Assembly: GCF_040438645.1 (NCBI RefSeq)
Contig: NZ_CP159253.1
Span: 3,658,001 to 3,722,000, forward strand
Length of the DNA: 64,000 nucleotides
Origin: Mesorhizobium sp. WSM2240
GTDB lineage: Bacteria; Pseudomonadota; Alphaproteobacteria; Rhizobiales; Rhizobiaceae
Reading direction: 5' to 3'
Both the position numbers and the translations under genes were made by a program. The notes beneath the pieces were generated by a model that saw only the letters and a list, made by a program, of their open reading frames with translations, did no database searches and was not told the origin of the DNA. The first letter of the stretch is position 1. Every line of letters begins with the position of its first letter. Shown piece by piece: positions 53,395-60,216 of this stretch.

Positions 53395-53430
53395 CTATCC
53401 AGAATCTAATCAGCGGCTATCCGAAATCTA
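53395..53430 (+). repeat. Two 14-bp direct repeats, 22 bp apart, in the polyP-operon leader
   Basis: CTATCCAGAATCTA (53395-53408) and CTATCCGAAATCTA (53417-53430) differ at two places. Start-to-start spacing is 22 bp, two DNA helical turns, which suits a dimeric regulator. A reverse copy of the CTATCC half (GGATAG) is at 53341-53346. They lie 42 bp upstream of the Pho box. Confidence 0.5.
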
Positions 53431-53471
53431 GCCAGACTCCCACGAAGCTTTAGCCGGCTAGCTTCATATAG

Positions 53472-53489
53472 CTGTCATCAGACTGTCAC
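53472..53489 (+). promoter_or_regulatory. Pho box (PhoB-type operator)
   Basis: CTGTCAT-CAGA-CTGTCAC: two 7-bp direct repeats separated by 4 bp. This is the PhoB operator pattern (CTGTCAT-N4-CTGTCAY) known from enterobacteria and rhizobia. It lies upstream of the DUF4956 and VTC polyphosphate polymerase genes, functions that fit phosphate control. The distance to the first large gene is 214 bp, with a short leader ORF in between. Confidence 0.7.
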
Positions 53490-53643
53490 GTTTCGGAAAT
53501 GTGTTCGAGCAAGTCGTTGATCTTCAAGGCTCAAGCGACGCCAGCCGTATCCACAATTTCTGACTTTCCGACTGGAATGGAGACGGGACCGTTCCGTTTT
53601 CCATTCAGCGCCACCTATGGCGCCACGAGAAGCAGGAGCTGAA

Positions 53644-53706
53644 ATGTACCCCGTTTTACTTACCCCGGCAGCATCACCAGGCGCGCCGATGGAGAGGACG
53701 CGATGA
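53644..53706 (+). CDS. Possible 20-residue leader peptide upstream of DUF4956
   Basis: ATG at 53644 is preceded by AGGAGCTGAA, a good Shine-Dalgarno. The frame runs 20 codons (M-Y-P-V-L-L-T-P-A-A... to R) and its TGA overlaps the ATG of DUF4956 as ATGA, which suggests translational coupling. It has no recognisable domain. It could set the translation rate of the operon. Evidence is only ribosome-site quality and the overlap. Confidence 0.4.
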   Translation: MYPVLLTPAASPGAPMERTR

Positions 53707-54296
53707 TCCTCTCTTTCACGCAAGCCCTTCAGGATCCGCTCGCGGCCCAGGCGATCAGGTTCCTGCTGAACCTCGTTGGAATGATGCTCCTTACCTTCGG
53801 CATGTACTACCGGCGCTACCGAGACAAGGAGTTGGTGACGGCGGCCGCGCTGTTCAACATTTTCGTTTTCGCGGTGCTCACCGTCCTGTCTTCGGTGAAT
53901 TTCAGCGTTGCCGCGGGCTTCGGCCTGTTCGCCATCCTGGCGCTTTTCACTCTGCGCTCGGAGCCGCTCAGCAAGACCGAGATGACCTACTTCTTCGGCA
54001 GCGTCGCCATCGCGGTCATTTCATCGGTGCAGGGAACGACGCTGCCCTTCGCGACGATGATCGTCCTGTTCGTGCTCGTCGGCGCCTACGTGGTCGATCA
54101 TCCGAAGATGCTGCAATCCGTCAGCGGGGCCAAGGTCACGCTCGACAAAATCCACCTGACGCTGCTGTCAGACCCCGAATCCATGCGCGCCGAACTCTCG
54201 GAGCGGCTCGGGGTCACGGTGCTGTCCTATCAGGTTCTCCAACTCGACTACATCACAGAAATGGCGAGGCTCAATGTCTTCTATCGCAAACACTGA
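53703..54296 (+). CDS. DUF4956-family membrane protein
   Basis: A 197-residue protein with about four hydrophobic segments in the N-terminal two-thirds (IRFLLNLVGMMLLTFGMYYRRYRD, AALFNIFVFAVLTVLSS, GFGLFAILALFTLRSEPLSKTEMTYFFGSVAIAVIS) and a soluble C-terminal domain. This is the DUF4956 layout. Members are regularly next to VTC-domain proteins and are thought to help polyphosphate handling, but no activity is proven. The stop overlaps the VTC gene start region by 23 bases, so expression is coupled. Confidence 0.88.
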   Translation: MILSFTQALQDPLAAQAIRFLLNLVGMMLLTFGMYYRRYRDKELVTAAALFNIFVFAVLTVLSSVNFSVAAGFGLFAILALFTLRSEPLSKTEMTYFFGSVAIAVISSVQGTTLPFATMIVLFVLVGAYVVDHPKMLQSVSGAKVTLDKIHLTLLSDPESMRAELSERLGVTVLSYQVLQLDYITEMARLNVFYRKH

Positions 54297-55101
54297 CGCG
54301 CGGCTGGAGCGGATTTTCCATCCAATCAGCCTCGCTAGCCTCAACTCCAAGGCAGAGATGCTGGAGCGGTTGGACAACAAATATGTCGTCGGCGCGGGCG
54401 TACTGCATCGCGCGTCGGCGGAACTGGCAAGACATTTCGATATTCTGGAGATCGAGGGCCGCCGGTCCTTCACCTATGAAACCTGCTATTTCGACGGTGC
54501 GGACCGGCGAAGCTATTTCGATCACCATCAGGGAAGGCGGCAGCGCGCTAAAGTCCGGATCCGGAAATATGTCGATGCAGGGCTTTGCTTCGTCGAGGTG
54601 AAGCTCAAGGACAAGCGCGGCGCCACGATCAAGAAGCGCCTGCCCTACAAAGCCGGCAAGTTCGGCGTTCTCGACGAGACCGCGCTCGCCTACGTTCACG
54701 ACGTCTATTTCGACCAGTACCGCCAAGAGTTCCCGTACGCGCTCTCGCGGGTCCTCGACATGCGCTATGTCCGCATGACGCTCGTGGCGAAGCAAGGCGG
54801 CGAGCGTATGACGATCGACAGCGGAATGCGGTTTTTCGCTCCCGGCTCGTCGCATGCGATCGACGACGACCACTTCATCCTTGAAGCAAAGTCCGCAAAT
54901 GGGAACGGAATAGCCGACCGCATTCTGCGCGCCATGCACCAGCATCCTACCAAGCACTGCTCGAAATATTGCACCGGCATCGCCATCCTCAATCAAGGCA
55001 CGAGGCACAACAAGTTCCTTCCGGCTCTCCGCAAGCTCGGGAGCGTGCCTGCGCCGCAAATGCCTGAAAACCCCGGGCGACAAATTGGGGTAGCCGCATG
55101 A
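54274..55101 (+). CDS. VTC-domain polyphosphate polymerase-like protein
   Basis: A 275-residue CYTH-type tunnel protein. NKYVVGAGVLHRA, ETCYFDGADRRSYFDHHQG, QRAKVRIRKY, LCFVEVKLKDKRGATIKKR and the acidic DDDHFILEAKSANGN carry the alternating basic and acidic residues that line VTC tunnels for ATP and polyphosphate. In yeast, VTC4 makes polyphosphate from ATP. It overlaps DUF4956. With a Pho box upstream I infer phosphate-controlled polyphosphate formation; a different polymer is possible. Confidence 0.88.
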   Translation: MSSIANTDARLERIFHPISLASLNSKAEMLERLDNKYVVGAGVLHRASAELARHFDILEIEGRRSFTYETCYFDGADRRSYFDHHQGRRQRAKVRIRKYVDAGLCFVEVKLKDKRGATIKKRLPYKAGKFGVLDETALAYVHDVYFDQYRQEFPYALSRVLDMRYVRMTLVAKQGGERMTIDSGMRFFAPGSSHAIDDDHFILEAKSANGNGIADRILRAMHQHPTKHCSKYCTGIAILNQGTRHNKFLPALRKLGSVPAPQMPENPGRQIGVAA

Positions 55102-55126
55102 CAGATCGCAAAGGAATGATGATCTT

Positions 55127-56083
55127 ATGACCAAACGAAAAGGATTTAGCCGCCTGTTCGGCGGTCTCACGCTGGCTGGGGTGCTGCTGGTTTCGACGTC
55201 GCTGGCCAGTTCGGCCCAGCCGAGTCTGGAAACGCTGGACAGCGTGGATATTCCTGTCGAGGGCGCTGACGGCGTCAGGATCGAGGAACTTTCAGGCCTG
55301 TCCTGGGACGAGGATGAGCAACTTCTCTACGCCGTTTCCGACGGCGGCGTCCTTCATCACTTTCGCGTTCGGCTGGAAGGATCGCGCATTGAGGGGATTG
55401 AATCCGTCTTCTCCACTCCTCTCACAACGGAGGCGAGCGAGACCTCCGGCAAGCCCGTCACCAACGCCGAGGGACTTACGACCATCAACGACGACAATGG
55501 CCAGCGGTCCGACAGCGAACTTCTGATCGCGTTTGAAGACGGGCCTTCAATCGCCCGCTTTACGCCACGCGGCGAGTGGATCGCCAATGCCGCCCTGCCC
55601 GCCCCGCTCGCGGACGAGACGCAATACGGCAAGAAGAATAGCCGTCTCGAAGCGGTCGCGTTCATTGAGGGTCACGGGATACTGACAGCGCCGGAACGGC
55701 CCCTAAAAGGTCAGCCGGAAGGCCGTCACACGCTCTATGCGGCAAGCGGAACGACCTGGTCTTTCGCAGCCTCCCAGCCCGACAGCAGACTGAAAGCCAT
55801 CCAGAAGTTGCCGGACGGCAATCTACTTGTCCTGGAGCGGACCCGCGAGGAAAAAGGCGGCGCACCGACGGCGCGGCTGCGCTATCTCGACTTCGCCAAG
55901 TGCTCCGCAAAACGGGAGTGCCAGCTTGCCGAGCTTTCAGCCGAGCCCGATGCGATGCTGGTCGACAATTTCGAAGGAATGGCCCGCCTGGCGGATGATT
56001 TGTTTCTGATCGTCACCGACAAGACAAGGAAGGACGCCGAACCGACGACCTTCGTCCTGTTCAGGGTCAAGGCGACGCCGTGA
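55127..56083 (+). CDS. Secreted phytase-like esterase-family protein
   Basis: A 318-residue protein with a signal peptide (LFGGLTLAGVLLVSTSLASSAQ). IEELSGLSWDEDEQLLYAVSDGG, NAEGLTTIN, DSELLIAFEDGPSIARF and DNFEGMARLADDLFLIVTDKTR place it in the esterase-like activity of phytase family, a beta-propeller group. It may release phosphate outside the cell, which fits the Pho-linked operon. It starts 25 bp after the VTC gene, so it is the third gene of the operon. Confidence 0.82.
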   Translation: MTKRKGFSRLFGGLTLAGVLLVSTSLASSAQPSLETLDSVDIPVEGADGVRIEELSGLSWDEDEQLLYAVSDGGVLHHFRVRLEGSRIEGIESVFSTPLTTEASETSGKPVTNAEGLTTINDDNGQRSDSELLIAFEDGPSIARFTPRGEWIANAALPAPLADETQYGKKNSRLEAVAFIEGHGILTAPERPLKGQPEGRHTLYAASGTTWSFAASQPDSRLKAIQKLPDGNLLVLERTREEKGGAPTARLRYLDFAKCSAKRECQLAELSAEPDAMLVDNFEGMARLADDLFLIVTDKTRKDAEPTTFVLFRVKATP

Positions 56084-56114
56084 AGCCGCAGCAATCGGCT
56101 GCGCAATTCTTTCC

Positions 56115-56140
56115 AATTTCTAACCTGAATACTGTGCACC
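56115..56140 (+). promoter_or_regulatory. Element shared with the NSSS-repeat gene promoter (TAACCTGA)
   Basis: CAATTTCTAACCTGA followed by CTGTGCACC here resembles, on the opposite strand, CAACTTTTAACCTGA followed by CTGTCACCA at 58757-58780. Both are next to genes of the same putative system: the kinase here and the NSSS-repeat protein there. It may be the binding site of the response regulator. The match was found by eye and its significance is untested. Confidence 0.35.
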
Positions 56141-56267
56141 CTTCGTGCCATAGTCGTCGAGACCGGACGAACCGGCCGCCGATTGCACGACGGCTACTAC
56201 CCCGGCCACGTGCGCATAATGCATTTCGTGAGCCCGATCCTTGGGTTCTCAACGCCGATGGACGCAG

Positions 56268-57926
56268 ATGGGCATCAGGTCTCGCATTCTTCTTTTTCAG
56301 CTCATCGTCGTGGCGTCGGTCTTGATGATGGCCGCCATCGTGTTCATCACCATCCGCTCGACGACCTATTACATGGAGCGCGTTCAGTGGGCCAACCACC
56401 AGTTGGGAGCCGTCACGGCGCTTACGGTGAACGCCAATCGATATTCCGAGCAGATCGCCGAATTCCTGTTGATTGGCGAACCGGAGCGCCCCGACTACGA
56501 CAGCGCCCGTGCCGAGCTCGAGGCAGGATTTGATGCGCTGGAGAAGCTGACCAGGGGCGAGGCCGAGTTCCTGGTAGGCACCAGCGAACAGGAGGACGGC
56601 GGCGACGAAATCTTCCGCATCACGCGCATGCGCGCCCTCTACGGAGAAATCAGCAAAGCAACCGCCAGGGCAATCGATCTACGCAATCAGGGGCGGCAGG
56701 AAGATGCGATCAACGTCTTTCGCCGTGATATCGAAAACCGTTTCGACGCCGAGTTCGAAAACATATTGGAGGCCGCCAGGCGCGATGAAGCGGAAGAGGT
56801 CGCGCGGGCGGAACTACAGGCAGAAGCATTGTGGCAGCGCCTGACCTGGATCACGGCGGGCCTTGCGCTGGCCGCGGTGGTCCTCTGCTTTGTCGCCGCT
56901 TTCCTTCTCGTCCGATCACTGATGCGCCCGATCGGCCTTCTGACCCAAGGCGCCGAGGCGATCGGGCGGGGTGAACTCGACCACCGGATCGGCTACGACA
57001 GCAGCGATGAACTCGGCGTGCTTGCGCGACGCTTCAACGCAATGGCGGCCAATCAGGAGGATCAACGCGAACGGCTGCTCGAAGCGCGCGCGGATCTCGA
57101 GCGGCAAGTCACCGCCCGTACGGCCGAACTCGCCGCGGCGAACCAGCGGCTGACCGACCTCGACCGGTTGCGGGTGCAGTTCCTTGCCGACATCAGTCAT
57201 GAACTGCGCACCCCGCTGACCGCTCTTCGCGGCGAGGCTGAGATTCCGCTGCGCCACGGCTCGAAGCCCGAAGCGGTTTACCGCGATGCGCTCGAACGGA
57301 TCGTCACACAAAGCCTGGAGATGAGCCGGCTCGTCGACGATCTGGTTTTCCTGTCCCGCTCGGAAACCGATACGATCCGTTTCGAACCGCGCCGAACGGA
57401 CCTCGTGACCATCGTCGCCGATGCGGTCCACGACGGCGAAATCCTTGCGCGCGCCAACGCCATTGCGATCAAGGCGGACTATAGGACCGATCCGGTCTGG
57501 GTCACCGCCGACGCGCAGCAGCTCAAGCAGGCGCTCGTCATACTTCTGGACAATGCCATAAAATACTCACCGCGCGGCCGCCCGGTGAACTTGAGCATGA
57601 CCGTTTCGGATGGGCATGCCAAGATTACCATACGCGACAAGGGGCTGGGCATTCCGGCCGAGGAAATACCAAAGGTGTTCGAGCGATTTTACCGCGGCCG
57701 AAGCCCAAAGACGTCACGCCAGCCCGGCAGCGGTCTCGGCCTCGCGATTGCGAAATGGCTTATCGAGAAGCATCAGGGCGAGATCACGCTCACCAGCGAG
57801 GTCGGGTCCTTTACGGAAGTCGTGGTTCGCATTCCATGCGCCGACGCAAGCCAAGCTCCGGATGACAAGGCCGGCGCCGGCGCGATTGCTTCGAGAAAAA
57901 CTCGTGTGAAAACCAGCGCCGAATAA
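56268..57926 (+). CDS. Membrane sensor histidine kinase
   Basis: A 552-residue kinase. TM1 spans about residues 8-30 and TM2 about 193-215, enclosing a periplasmic helical sensor region (32-190) of unknown ligand. HAMP follows (216-268), then a coiled segment, and the H-box DISHELRTPLTALRGE with His311. ATP-binding boxes are LDNAIKYS, DKGLGIP and GSGLGLAIAKW. The ATG at 56268 (MGIRSRILL) is preferred to a TTG 9 codons earlier. It pairs with the response regulator 52 bp downstream. Confidence 0.92.
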   Translation: MGIRSRILLFQLIVVASVLMMAAIVFITIRSTTYYMERVQWANHQLGAVTALTVNANRYSEQIAEFLLIGEPERPDYDSARAELEAGFDALEKLTRGEAEFLVGTSEQEDGGDEIFRITRMRALYGEISKATARAIDLRNQGRQEDAINVFRRDIENRFDAEFENILEAARRDEAEEVARAELQAEALWQRLTWITAGLALAAVVLCFVAAFLLVRSLMRPIGLLTQGAEAIGRGELDHRIGYDSSDELGVLARRFNAMAANQEDQRERLLEARADLERQVTARTAELAAANQRLTDLDRLRVQFLADISHELRTPLTALRGEAEIPLRHGSKPEAVYRDALERIVTQSLEMSRLVDDLVFLSRSETDTIRFEPRRTDLVTIVADAVHDGEILARANAIAIKADYRTDPVWVTADAQQLKQALVILLDNAIKYSPRGRPVNLSMTVSDGHAKITIRDKGLGIPAEEIPKVFERFYRGRSPKTSRQPGSGLGLAIAKWLIEKHQGEITLTSEVGSFTEVVVRIPCADASQAPDDKAGAGAIASRKTRVKTSAE

Positions 57927-57978
57927 AAGCAGAGGGAAGCGCCTGCCAGCGACAGGATCCCGGATAAAGGTGGTGTCA

Positions 57979-58653
57979 ATGTCAAGAATTCTGCTGGTAG
58001 AGGATGACGACCGCATCGTGGGCTTTATCAAGCGAGGGCTCGAAGCGGAAGGTTACCTGGTCGATCTTGCAAGCAATGGCGAGGATGCATTGGCGATGGT
58101 TCGGGAGGCGTCCTATTCGCTGATCGTTCTCGACCGTCTGCTTCCCGGAATTGATGGTCTCGAAGTGTGCCGGATGCTGCAGCGCGAGCGGCACAAGAAT
58201 CTCGTCCTGATGCTCACGGCGAGGGACAGCCTGCAGGACAAGGTCGAGGGGCTGAAGGGAGGCGCCGACGACTATCTGACCAAACCCTTCGCTTTCGACG
58301 AACTGATCGCTCGAATCGAAGCCTTGCTTCGACGCGGCCCCGGCGCGACATCGGATCCGCTGCTGAAGGTCGGCGACCTCACTCTCGACCCGGTCGCCAA
58401 AAAGGTTAGGCGCGGCGAGCGCGAGATCAGTCTGACGGCCAAGGAATTCAGGCTTCTAAATTATATGATGCTGCATCCCGGAGCCGTCATCAGCCGCACA
58501 CGGCTGCTGAACAATGTCTGGGATCTGAGCTTTGACCCCGAAACAAAGGTGGTCGATGTCTACATACGCTATCTCCGCCGCAAGATCGACGGCGCTGAGG
58601 AACACCCGCTTATCAAGACCGTGCGCGGCTTCGGCTACGTCATATCTGCTTGA
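57979..58653 (+). CDS. OmpR-family response regulator
   Basis: A 224-residue regulator. The receiver has acidic Asp9/Asp10, phospho-acceptor Asp52 (IVLDRLLPG), Thr80 and Lys102 (YLTKPF). The C-terminal winged helix is REISLTAKEFRLLNYMMLHPGAVISRTRLLNNVWD... VDVYIRYLRRKIDG. It is the partner of the upstream kinase. OmpR-family proteins bind 7-4-7 direct repeats, and such repeats are seen both upstream of DUF4956 and upstream of the NSSS gene, so it probably controls one or both. Confidence 0.92.
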   Translation: MSRILLVEDDDRIVGFIKRGLEAEGYLVDLASNGEDALAMVREASYSLIVLDRLLPGIDGLEVCRMLQRERHKNLVLMLTARDSLQDKVEGLKGGADDYLTKPFAFDELIARIEALLRRGPGATSDPLLKVGDLTLDPVAKKVRRGEREISLTAKEFRLLNYMMLHPGAVISRTRLLNNVWDLSFDPETKVVDVYIRYLRRKIDGAEEHPLIKTVRGFGYVISA

Positions 58654-58758
58654 GGCCGAATTTTGAACGCCGAGAACTGCATCCGGTATGTGGCGGCCTC
58701 GTTCAACTGTCTTAGAAATTTTCCCGGCTAAAAAGATCATATTGAAAGTAAGAGCGTG

Positions 58759-58776
58759 GTGACAGTCAGGTTAAAA
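58759..58776 (-). promoter_or_regulatory. Half Pho-like site: TTTTAAC-CTGA-CTGTCAC on the minus strand
   Basis: On the minus strand this reads TTTTAAC, four bases, CTGTCAC. The second half is identical to the second half of the Pho box at 53483, and the spacer length is the same; the first half matches poorly (3 of 7). It also contains the TAACCTGA shared with 56121. Taken alone the evidence is weak. Confidence 0.3.
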
Positions 58777-58792
58777 GTTGGATAGAAGCGTT

Positions 58793-58829
58793 TTATTTCG
58801 GGATTATTTCCACATTTCTACGTTATTTC
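58793..58829 (+). promoter_or_regulatory. Two tandem 7-4-7 direct repeats (TTATTTC) upstream of the NSSS-repeat gene
   Basis: TTATTTC occurs at 58793 and 58804, then ACATTTC at 58812 and TTATTTC at 58823. Each pair is 11 bp apart (7-bp unit plus 4-bp spacer), exactly the geometry of OmpR/PhoB-family operators. They lie 55-91 bp before the ATG at 58884. The response regulator gene just upstream is the best candidate to bind here. Confidence 0.5.
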
Positions 58830-58883
58830 ACAGTGGTCGCACAGGAGCGACTGCAGCGCGTGACGATCAACGGAGAAAGCATC

Positions 58884-59375
58884 ATGAAACCCACTCATAA
58901 AATCGGCCGCATGATTGCCTTTGCAATCGCCGCCGCGACCGGAACAGCGGTATCAGGAGGCGCGCAAGCGGCCGTCAAGCCGCATATGGTCGAGACCGGC
59001 GGCATCAGGAGCATCCTCGGCGCGAAGCAGGTGGCGCCGAAGACGCTGCCTGGAACGGTTGAGGCTCAGGGGGAAAAGTTGCTGCAGTTCGCCGGCAACA
59101 GCTCGTCGAATTCCAGTTCGAACGGGTCGTCGAATTCGAGTTCCAACAGTTCGTCGAATTCCAGCTCGAACAGTTCGTCGAACTCGAGCTCCAACAGCTC
59201 GTCAAATTCGAGCTCCAACAGCTCGTCAAATTCGAGCTCCAACAGCTCGTCGAACTCGAATTCCAACAGCTCGTCCAATTCTAGTTCGAACCAGTCGGAT
59301 GACGGCCGCTCAAACCGCGGTTCCAGATCAAACCGGTCGGGCCGGAACCTGATTAATTTGCTGTTCCAACGCTGA
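58884..59375 (+). CDS. Secreted protein with Asn-Ser-Ser-Ser tandem repeats
   Basis: A 163-residue protein with a signal peptide (GRMIAFAIAAATGTAVSGGAQAA). After a short linker (VETGGIRSILGAKQVAPKTLPG... LLQFAG) come sixteen N-S-S-S tetrapeptides (the third is NGSS and the fourteenth NSNS), then NQSDDGR and a basic, Asn/Arg-rich end (GSRSNRSGRNLINLLFQR). It has no cysteines. No family is recognised. The polar, uncharged repeat suggests a flexible extracellular linker or sugar/metal-phosphate interacting surface. The basic tail could bind polyphosphate or anionic polymer, an inference. The ATG has GGAG upstream. Confidence 0.75.
   Translation: MKPTHKIGRMIAFAIAAATGTAVSGGAQAAVKPHMVETGGIRSILGAKQVAPKTLPGTVEAQGEKLLQFAGNSSSNSSSNGSSNSSSNSSSNSSSNSSSNSSSNSSSNSSSNSSSNSSSNSSSNSNSNSSSNSSSNQSDDGRSNRGSRSNRSGRNLINLLFQR
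59097..59288 (+). repeat. 24-bp tandem DNA repeat (8 units) inside the NSSS gene
   Basis: The 192-bp block alternates AACAGCTCGTCG-like and AATTCGAGCTCC-like 12-mers, that is eight 24-bp units of two tetrapeptides each. Codon choice is similar but not identical between units, so the repeat is not perfectly young. Copy number is likely to vary by slippage, in steps of four or eight residues without frameshift. Confidence 0.85.
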
Positions 59376-59383
59376 CGGCGTTT

Positions 59384-59405
59384 GGGGACCGGCCAGCCGG
59401 TCCCC
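59384..59405 (+). terminator. Hairpin terminator after the NSSS-repeat gene
   Basis: GGGGACCGG (59384-59392), loop CCAG, CCGGTCCCC (59397-59405): a perfect 9-bp GC-rich stem beginning 8 bases after the stop codon. It lacks a long T-run (GTCTCCC follows), so termination may be partial or the hairpin may stabilise the mRNA 3' end. Confidence 0.6.
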
Positions 59406-59502
59406 GTCTCCCGGTGACGACGCGACTCCCACATTTGCCGTCTGCATTGTCACGGTCTTACCATTCATCGGCGGCCGCCCACCCGCCCAACCGAGGTGAC
59501 AA

Positions 59503-60216
59503 ATGCTCGCCCGCTTCAGCAAAATTTCGCCGAAAATCGCTTTCCTCTGCCAACCGTCGGATGTGGGCGTTATCGCCGAACCGCGGCCCGCCAAGGCCGC
59601 CCTGCCCGACTGGTTCCGCAAGATCGCGCCGATCGATCTGGAGCATGTCGGCGCGCGCGACAACGGCATCACAATCAAGCGCTGCATGCCATTTCTGGAC
59701 GCGCTGTCCACCGGCTGGATCTTGCCGTTAGCCGCGGAGGTGCGGCTGGAGATCAAGGAAGGTGGGGAAACCGTTGATTTCGGCTGGGAGTTCGACCGTA
59801 CGATGGTCAGCAATCACAGCCCGCACCAGATCACAGGCCATCCCAGCACGCCGCGGCCGCCGTGCAAATTCCACAATTACTGGGCGATCCGGACGCCGCC
59901 GGGATGGAGCTGCCTGTTCGTGCCTCCGCTCAACCGGCCGAATGGCGTTTTCGAGGCAGTCGCCGGCATAGTGGACACCGACACCTATGCCGCGCACATC
60001 CACTTCCCCTTCTTCCCGATCGGCCCCGATGGCGTGCACATCATCGAAAAGGGCACGCCGCTGGTGCAGATCTTCCCGTTTCGCCGCGCCGACGCCGCGA
60101 TCCAATTCGAGGTGCGCGCCGAGACAATGGAAGAGGCAAGCGAGCGGGAACGCGTTTATCGCAACACCATCGCCGGCTCGGGCTGGTATCGAAAATTCGC
60201 GCGTGCGAAGCGGTGA
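59503..60216 (+). CDS. Conserved hypothetical protein, DUF6065-like
   Basis: A 237-residue cytoplasmic protein. LPDWFRKIAPIDLEHVGARDNGITIKRCMPFLDALSTGWILPLAAEV and FVPPLNRPNGVFEAVAGIVDTDTYAAHIHFPFF are its most conserved-looking parts; the closing segment resembles a cupin-like or phage-type fold. I associate it with DUF6065, function unknown, with relatives in phages. It follows the NSSS gene by 127 bp and may be unrelated to it. Confidence 0.6.
   Translation: MLARFSKISPKIAFLCQPSDVGVIAEPRPAKAALPDWFRKIAPIDLEHVGARDNGITIKRCMPFLDALSTGWILPLAAEVRLEIKEGGETVDFGWEFDRTMVSNHSPHQITGHPSTPRPPCKFHNYWAIRTPPGWSCLFVPPLNRPNGVFEAVAGIVDTDTYAAHIHFPFFPIGPDGVHIIEKGTPLVQIFPFRRADAAIQFEVRAETMEEASERERVYRNTIAGSGWYRKFARAKR

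Follow-up and report, generated by a model that had tools for sequence, protein, structure and literature searches.

Does a run of same-strand genes in Mesorhizobium sp. WSM2240 (genome size 6.7 Mb) encode one polyphosphate system, or do two gene sets adjoin there? The locus lies in a stretch of 64,000 nucleotides (contig NZ_CP159253.1, positions 3,658,001 to 3,722,000; the window), and all features named in a preliminary description, which took them for a single phosphate-linked module with its own two-component system and a secreted repeat protein, sit on its + strand. We consider it reasonably probable that the locus comprises two adjoining modules: a polyphosphate operon (53472-56083) and a set made up of a two-component system, a secreted protein with Asn-Ser-Ser-Ser (NSSS) repeats and a DUF6065 protein (56268-60216). 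The two modules look as if they sometimes travel together. The first has these features:

53472..53489, + strand: Pho box CTGTCATCAGACTGTCAC, matching 14/14 scored positions, 231 bp before DUF4956
53644..53706, + strand: leader open reading frame (ORF) of 20 codons, read from the sequence; its TGA overlaps the DUF4956 ATG
53703..54296, + strand: DUF4956 membrane protein (PF16316; model pLDDT 77.6)
54274..55101, + strand: VTC-type tunnel domain, putative polyphosphate polymerase (PF09359, 99.9 bits against a cut-off of 23)
55127..56083, + strand: secreted phytase-like protein (PF13449; signal peptide by eye)

The second has the following:

56268..57926, + strand: sensor histidine kinase (Pfam), its sensor part preceding a HAMP domain
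57979..58653, + strand: OmpR-type response regulator (Pfam); start taken at ATG 57979, the ORF opening at GTG 57970
58740..58883, + strand: conserved promoter-like block holding GGTTAAAA-TTGGA-AGA (58769-58786), by eye
58884..59375, + strand: secreted NSSS-repeat protein (signal peptide by eye; repeat tract)
59384..59405, + strand: hairpin with a perfect 9-bp stem and no T-run, between the NSSS and DUF6065 genes
59503..60216, + strand: DUF6065 protein (PF19541, 35.3 bits against a cut-off of 26.6)

The genes and features first listed for this DNA are all present, with Pfam domains and an exact Pho box; the range then given (53395..59405) ends short of the DUF6065 gene. DUF4956 (155.6 bits), VTC and Phytase-like (98.0 bits) score above the Pfam cut-offs, as do HAMP/HisKA/HATPase_c in the kinase and Response_reg/Trans_reg_C in the regulator, a domain content that fits an OmpR-type two-component system. 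The short gaps that had been described are found among the DUF4956, VTC and phytase-like genes (a 23-nt overlap, then 25 nt), but not before the kinase (184 bp) or the NSSS gene (230 bp).

The kinase, NSSS and DUF6065 genes and their relation to VTC

Seven loci carry a kinase of at least 73% identity to the window's: the window itself, L011, L161 (Phyllobacterium), L162 (R. leguminosarum), L166, L168 and L169. NSSS and DUF6065 genes accompany it in six of the seven, and VTC lies within the stretch in two (the window and L011); at four loci kinase, regulator, NSSS and DUF6065 stand together with no VTC in the retrieved stretch. In the window's lineage these counts give no support to a VTC system that includes the kinase, the regulator and the NSSS protein. 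Kinases at 36-46% identity (L163, L164, L165, L167 and L170) have NSSS and DUF6065 beside them in one of five cases (L167) and VTC in none. L167, the sole coverage of contig G002:C329, holds a second NSSS-DUF6065-kinase-regulator set with a different gene order and a more distant kinase (46%).

The sensor part of the window's kinase is 95% identical to one of Allomesorhizobium camelthorni and matches 6 of 394 genomes of its own family, five of them strongly. When the window's genus is left out of the sensor profile, this kinase is the sole match in its own genome, a weak one (E 3.4e-6); in 101 relatives the same profile also finds stronger matches, and four of those genomes (G062, G083, G090 and G097) have no VTC match. 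The pair falls short of the NCBIfam equivalog scores for PhoR-PhoB, the kinase reaching 192.6 of 334.2 bits and its partner regulator 221.6 of 296.2 bits.

DUF6065 accompanies the NSSS protein more constantly than any other partner; it matches 15/295 Rhodobacteraceae genomes and 45/394 genomes of the window's own family. Near relatives of DUF6065 (at least 59% identity) have an Asn/Ser (N/S) tract within ~1.5 kb in 31 of 33 scanned loci, or 26 of 28 when five previously seen loci are set aside, and in all 31 the tract lies in an ORF with a signal-peptide-like start. Among distant relatives (at most 41%; near and distant being split by identity rather than by tree) no N/S-repeat ORF was found in the 12 whose locus was scanned, 15 further places and one fragment being left out. 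In 16 loci the tract is downstream and runs opposite to DUF6065, in 9 it is downstream with the same orientation and in 6 upstream with the same orientation, so the link survives rearrangement; outside the repeat the N/S proteins differ. NSSS and DUF6065 are a conserved pair of unknown genes.

Twenty wider DUF6065 loci, drawn from the 33 and two of them shortened by contig ends, contain a subtilase in 11, an anti-sigma factor in 12 and an ECF sigma factor in 13, compared with 0, 0 and 1 of 40 control stretches (20 kb each, from four VTC-carrying genomes). The DUF6065 protein has no evident signal peptide; sequence searches gave nothing clear on its fold or enzyme class, matched one PHROG of unknown function and showed no kinase relation. 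No paper on DUF6065 or on its pairing with NSSS was found in the open-licence literature. It is tempting, though tentative, to speculate that the pair is a new two-part system of Rhizobiales and Rhodobacterales, in which DUF6065 might modify, or gate the export of, a secreted Asn/Ser surface-layer protein. Envelope-stress regulators (the kinase-regulator pair, or ECF sigma and anti-sigma with an Asp-repeat subtilase) might control it, and in some species the layer might be coupled to exported polyphosphate.

The NSSS repeat spans 65 residues with a period of 24 bp. Its serine codons come from both boxes (TCG 21, AGC 9, TCC 8, AGT 5 and others), a mixture that would fit selection at the amino-acid level. 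The promoter-like block is kept in six of seven NSSS upstream regions; a CTGTCA-like half-site upstream of NSSS was discarded, as it is not conserved in M. alhagi. The hairpin at 59384..59405 had been taken to close the module. Its stem is perfect, but it lacks a T-run, the 58-nt stretch shows no better folding than its shuffled versions (z -1.10), and DUF6065 follows the hairpin. Against a large protein set, the NSSS N-terminus had one match, a protein of 99 residues encoded on a 573-base contig. Nothing relevant on Asn/Ser repeat proteins in Rhizobium was found in the open-licence literature, and the terms sought do not occur in the M. alhagi salt-stress transcriptome paper (PMC4302635). In L161 (NZ_CP017941.1, 11247-11594) the gene table, known to be incomplete, gives only an antisense ORF over the NSSS gene and omits the sense ORF with the repeat and a signal-peptide-like start; with one record annotating the wrong strand, the NSSS-DUF6065 pair is easily missed.

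A number of observations weigh against two separate modules of this composition. R. leguminosarum L162, whose kinase is 84% identical, has no NSSS or DUF6065 match, and the 20 wider DUF6065 loci contain no match to the window's kinase above 30% identity, which means that the NSSS-DUF6065 pair can do without the two-component system. Eight Rhodobacteraceae stretches with a related kinase and no VTC match (L089-L094, L096 and L097; one is 3.4 kb) have no N/S tract, and we rate our reading slightly lower for this; two of them have Asp tracts. The N/S tract is also missing from two DUF6065 loci, L172, which has an Asp-repeat subtilase, and L198 (none in 15.5 kb), and from L096, where a partial DUF6065 (58%, outside the 33) accompanies an Asp-repeat subtilase. 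DUF4956, compared with solved structures, has no clear match. Two further points come from the VTC side. A related kinase sensor occurs in 16 of 78 VTC loci and in none of the 40 controls, and two Tabrizicola loci (L060 and L071) hold VTC, DUF4956, kinase, regulator, an N/S repeat and DUF6065 together. As the 78 loci (stretches of 3 to 21 kb) were gathered by two peptide patterns from a narrow alignment, counts made on them hold for this proteobacterial clade.

These last two points favour one integrated system, in which the two-component system would respond to the state of the envelope or of phosphate, and polyphosphate would have the NSSS protein as its partner outside, perhaps as a matrix that holds it together with calcium. 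So do the low-complexity secreted proteins found near VTC in 19/78 loci against 0/40 controls (23 in 854 kb against none in 800 kb, by a home-made signal test with no gene-by-gene curation, in which Asp-repeat subtilases are counted and Asp/Arg tracts are not) and the EF-hand (poly-D) proteins of 9/78 loci. Of 295 Rhodobacteraceae genomes, 12 have VTC and 9 have the sensor at E < 1e-30; four genomes share both, three of them within 7 kb. The sensor is therefore present in 4/12 VTC genomes against 5/283 without VTC (Fisher p 0.00018; p = 0.002 without the centre genome, which had been chosen for having both). At E 1e-3 it is found in 13/295 genomes (4/12 with VTC, 9/283 without), and a separate survey gave a match in 7/21 VTC genomes; at most 8 or 10 candidates were scored per genome in the sensor searches of the 295 and the 394 genomes. 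However, most kinase-NSSS-DUF6065 sets of the window's lineage have no VTC nearby, DUF6065 occurs in only 3/78 VTC loci, and DUF4956 is found in none of the 20 wider DUF6065 loci, 19 of which have an N/S tract. We regard one integrated system as unlikely. The co-occurrence expected in the preliminary description fails in the window's lineage and holds in Rhodobacteraceae for a related sensor. Subtilase, ECF sigma and anti-sigma genes occur near VTC and near DUF6065 alike. We read both gene sets as modules of the envelope that combine in varying ways, with a common task possible.

Other arrangements were seen around these genes. Five VTC loci (L055, L064, L066, L072 and L083) have, as neighbours of VTC, secreted proteins rich in Gly/Ser or in Asp with a common C-terminal stretch like 'IYYxNGWxE...YxLxDxxxRxVxR' (by eye); a kinase-regulator pair of NarL-like type (clusters of 7 loci) is close by. 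On Paracoccus and Rhodobacter plasmids (L163 and L164), an HlyD adaptor and a peptidase-domain ABC transporter precede the related kinase, which suggests a link to protein export. In L165 (4824-6742), a surface lipoprotein assembly modifier and a Gly/Ser-repeat protein adjoin it. A protein family that has a P-loop-like motif but matches nothing in Pfam (L077, 11433-12587, and relatives) travels with related kinases and occurs in 12/78 VTC loci; it is annotated as dethiobiotin synthase in Paracoccus.

The DUF4956-VTC operon

The first module probably is, from its gene content and upstream sequence, a PhoB-controlled, membrane-coupled polyphosphate polymerase operon. DUF4956 is present in 77/78 VTC loci and the phytase-like gene in 39/78. 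The Pho box is conserved in M. alhagi, and 40 of 77 regions upstream of the DUF4956-VTC pair (one of the 78 was too short) score at least 11/14, where shuffles expect 2.35; none of 880 control segments (300 bp each, any position, mostly coding) reaches 13 of 14 positions. Phosphate control, as proposed earlier, is supported by these counts, and the proposal of a polyphosphate polymerase working with DUF4956 gains from their near-constant association and from the predicted VTC fold.

The VTC protein, 88-89% identical to its M. alhagi counterpart, has a predicted structure closest to yeast Vtc4 (tunnel fold). Its R95, R97 and E204 are invariant across 70 sequences and likely correspond to the catalytic RxR and E residues of Vtc4, given as R264, R266 and E426 in the accessible portion of PMC9911596, the mapping being by motif. 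A sequence profile against PDB had a weak best match, Vtc2 (E 0.42); Pfam at E 0.01 found the VTC domain alone and no SPX domain. That the protein is another tunnel enzyme, say a triphosphatase or a transferase using nucleotides to make a surface polymer, as Gram-positive Pel loci with CotH might suggest, is quite improbable in view of the VTC structures that fill the top 13 Foldseek and top 7 VIA rows, the Pho boxes and the phosphate-gene neighbours. PPK1 is encoded elsewhere in the same genome. In Ruegeria haliotis (G102, the genome of L057) PPK1 was not found, the sole such case among 26 VTC-bearing handles.

DUF4956 is predicted to consist of helices followed by a C-terminal beta-alpha-beta-beta domain. 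To MgtC, a possible relative, 31/72 members match weakly (best E 0.0041), with an hhalign probability of 20%. No paper on DUF4956 with polyphosphate was found in the open-licence literature. The leader ORF has the same length in M. alhagi, with many residues changed (by-eye comparison), and so may serve translational coupling only.

Proposed mechanism and likeness to known systems

Starting from the observed gene content, predicted VTC fold, Pho boxes and conserved neighbourhoods, we propose a model in which our confidence falls in order from PhoB action through the polyphosphate product, the DUF4956 conduit and regulation of NSSS through the two-component system to the action of DUF6065 on NSSS. 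Under phosphate starvation, PhoB would bind the Pho box and turn on the first operon. The VTC domain would then make polyphosphate from ATP at the membrane, where DUF4956 would anchor it and probably conduct the chain outwards, while the phytase-like protein probably frees phosphate outside; the module would thus act as a second polymerase beside PPK1. The two-component system may control the NSSS protein and DUF6065. The NSSS protein would be secreted and is probably disordered, and DUF6065 most likely modifies or handles it ahead of export. If this is true, phosphate controls a second polyphosphate polymerase in many Proteobacteria, one that is active at the membrane as the vacuolar enzyme of yeast is, and polyphosphate outside the cytoplasm would become accessible to genetics. 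The NSSS-DUF6065 pair is open to direct genetic test.

Like the eukaryotic VTC complex (Vtc1/3/4), the first module has a tunnel polymerase domain at the membrane with probable RxR and E counterparts. It differs in that no SPX domain was found, in that DUF4956 replaces the Vtc membrane domain, and in having a Pho box where inositol pyrophosphate control would operate in eukaryotes. The literature found on VTC, CotH and DUF4956 concerns Pel and a Clostridium locus. The accessory genes of Gram-positive Pel loci (CotH-polyphosphate polymerase-DUF4956; PMC7112168, PMC12345266) likewise pair a VTC-type gene with DUF4956. In S. intermedius, mutation of SIR_1592, an MgtC/ACT-like gene that is probably the DUF4956 homologue, or of the CotH-like gene altered the Pel level and lowered aggregation. 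Unlike Pel loci, our locus has a Pho box and a phytase-like partner, and none of the nine window proteins that were scanned is a CotH. The second module resembles, by analogy only, the CotH-CotB/CotG spore coat module (PMC7821199, accessible portion), where a serine-rich repeat protein is encoded with its modifier; unlike CotH, DUF6065 has no kinase relation in the searches made. PPK1 belongs to an unrelated family and presumably makes the same product as the VTC-type protein.
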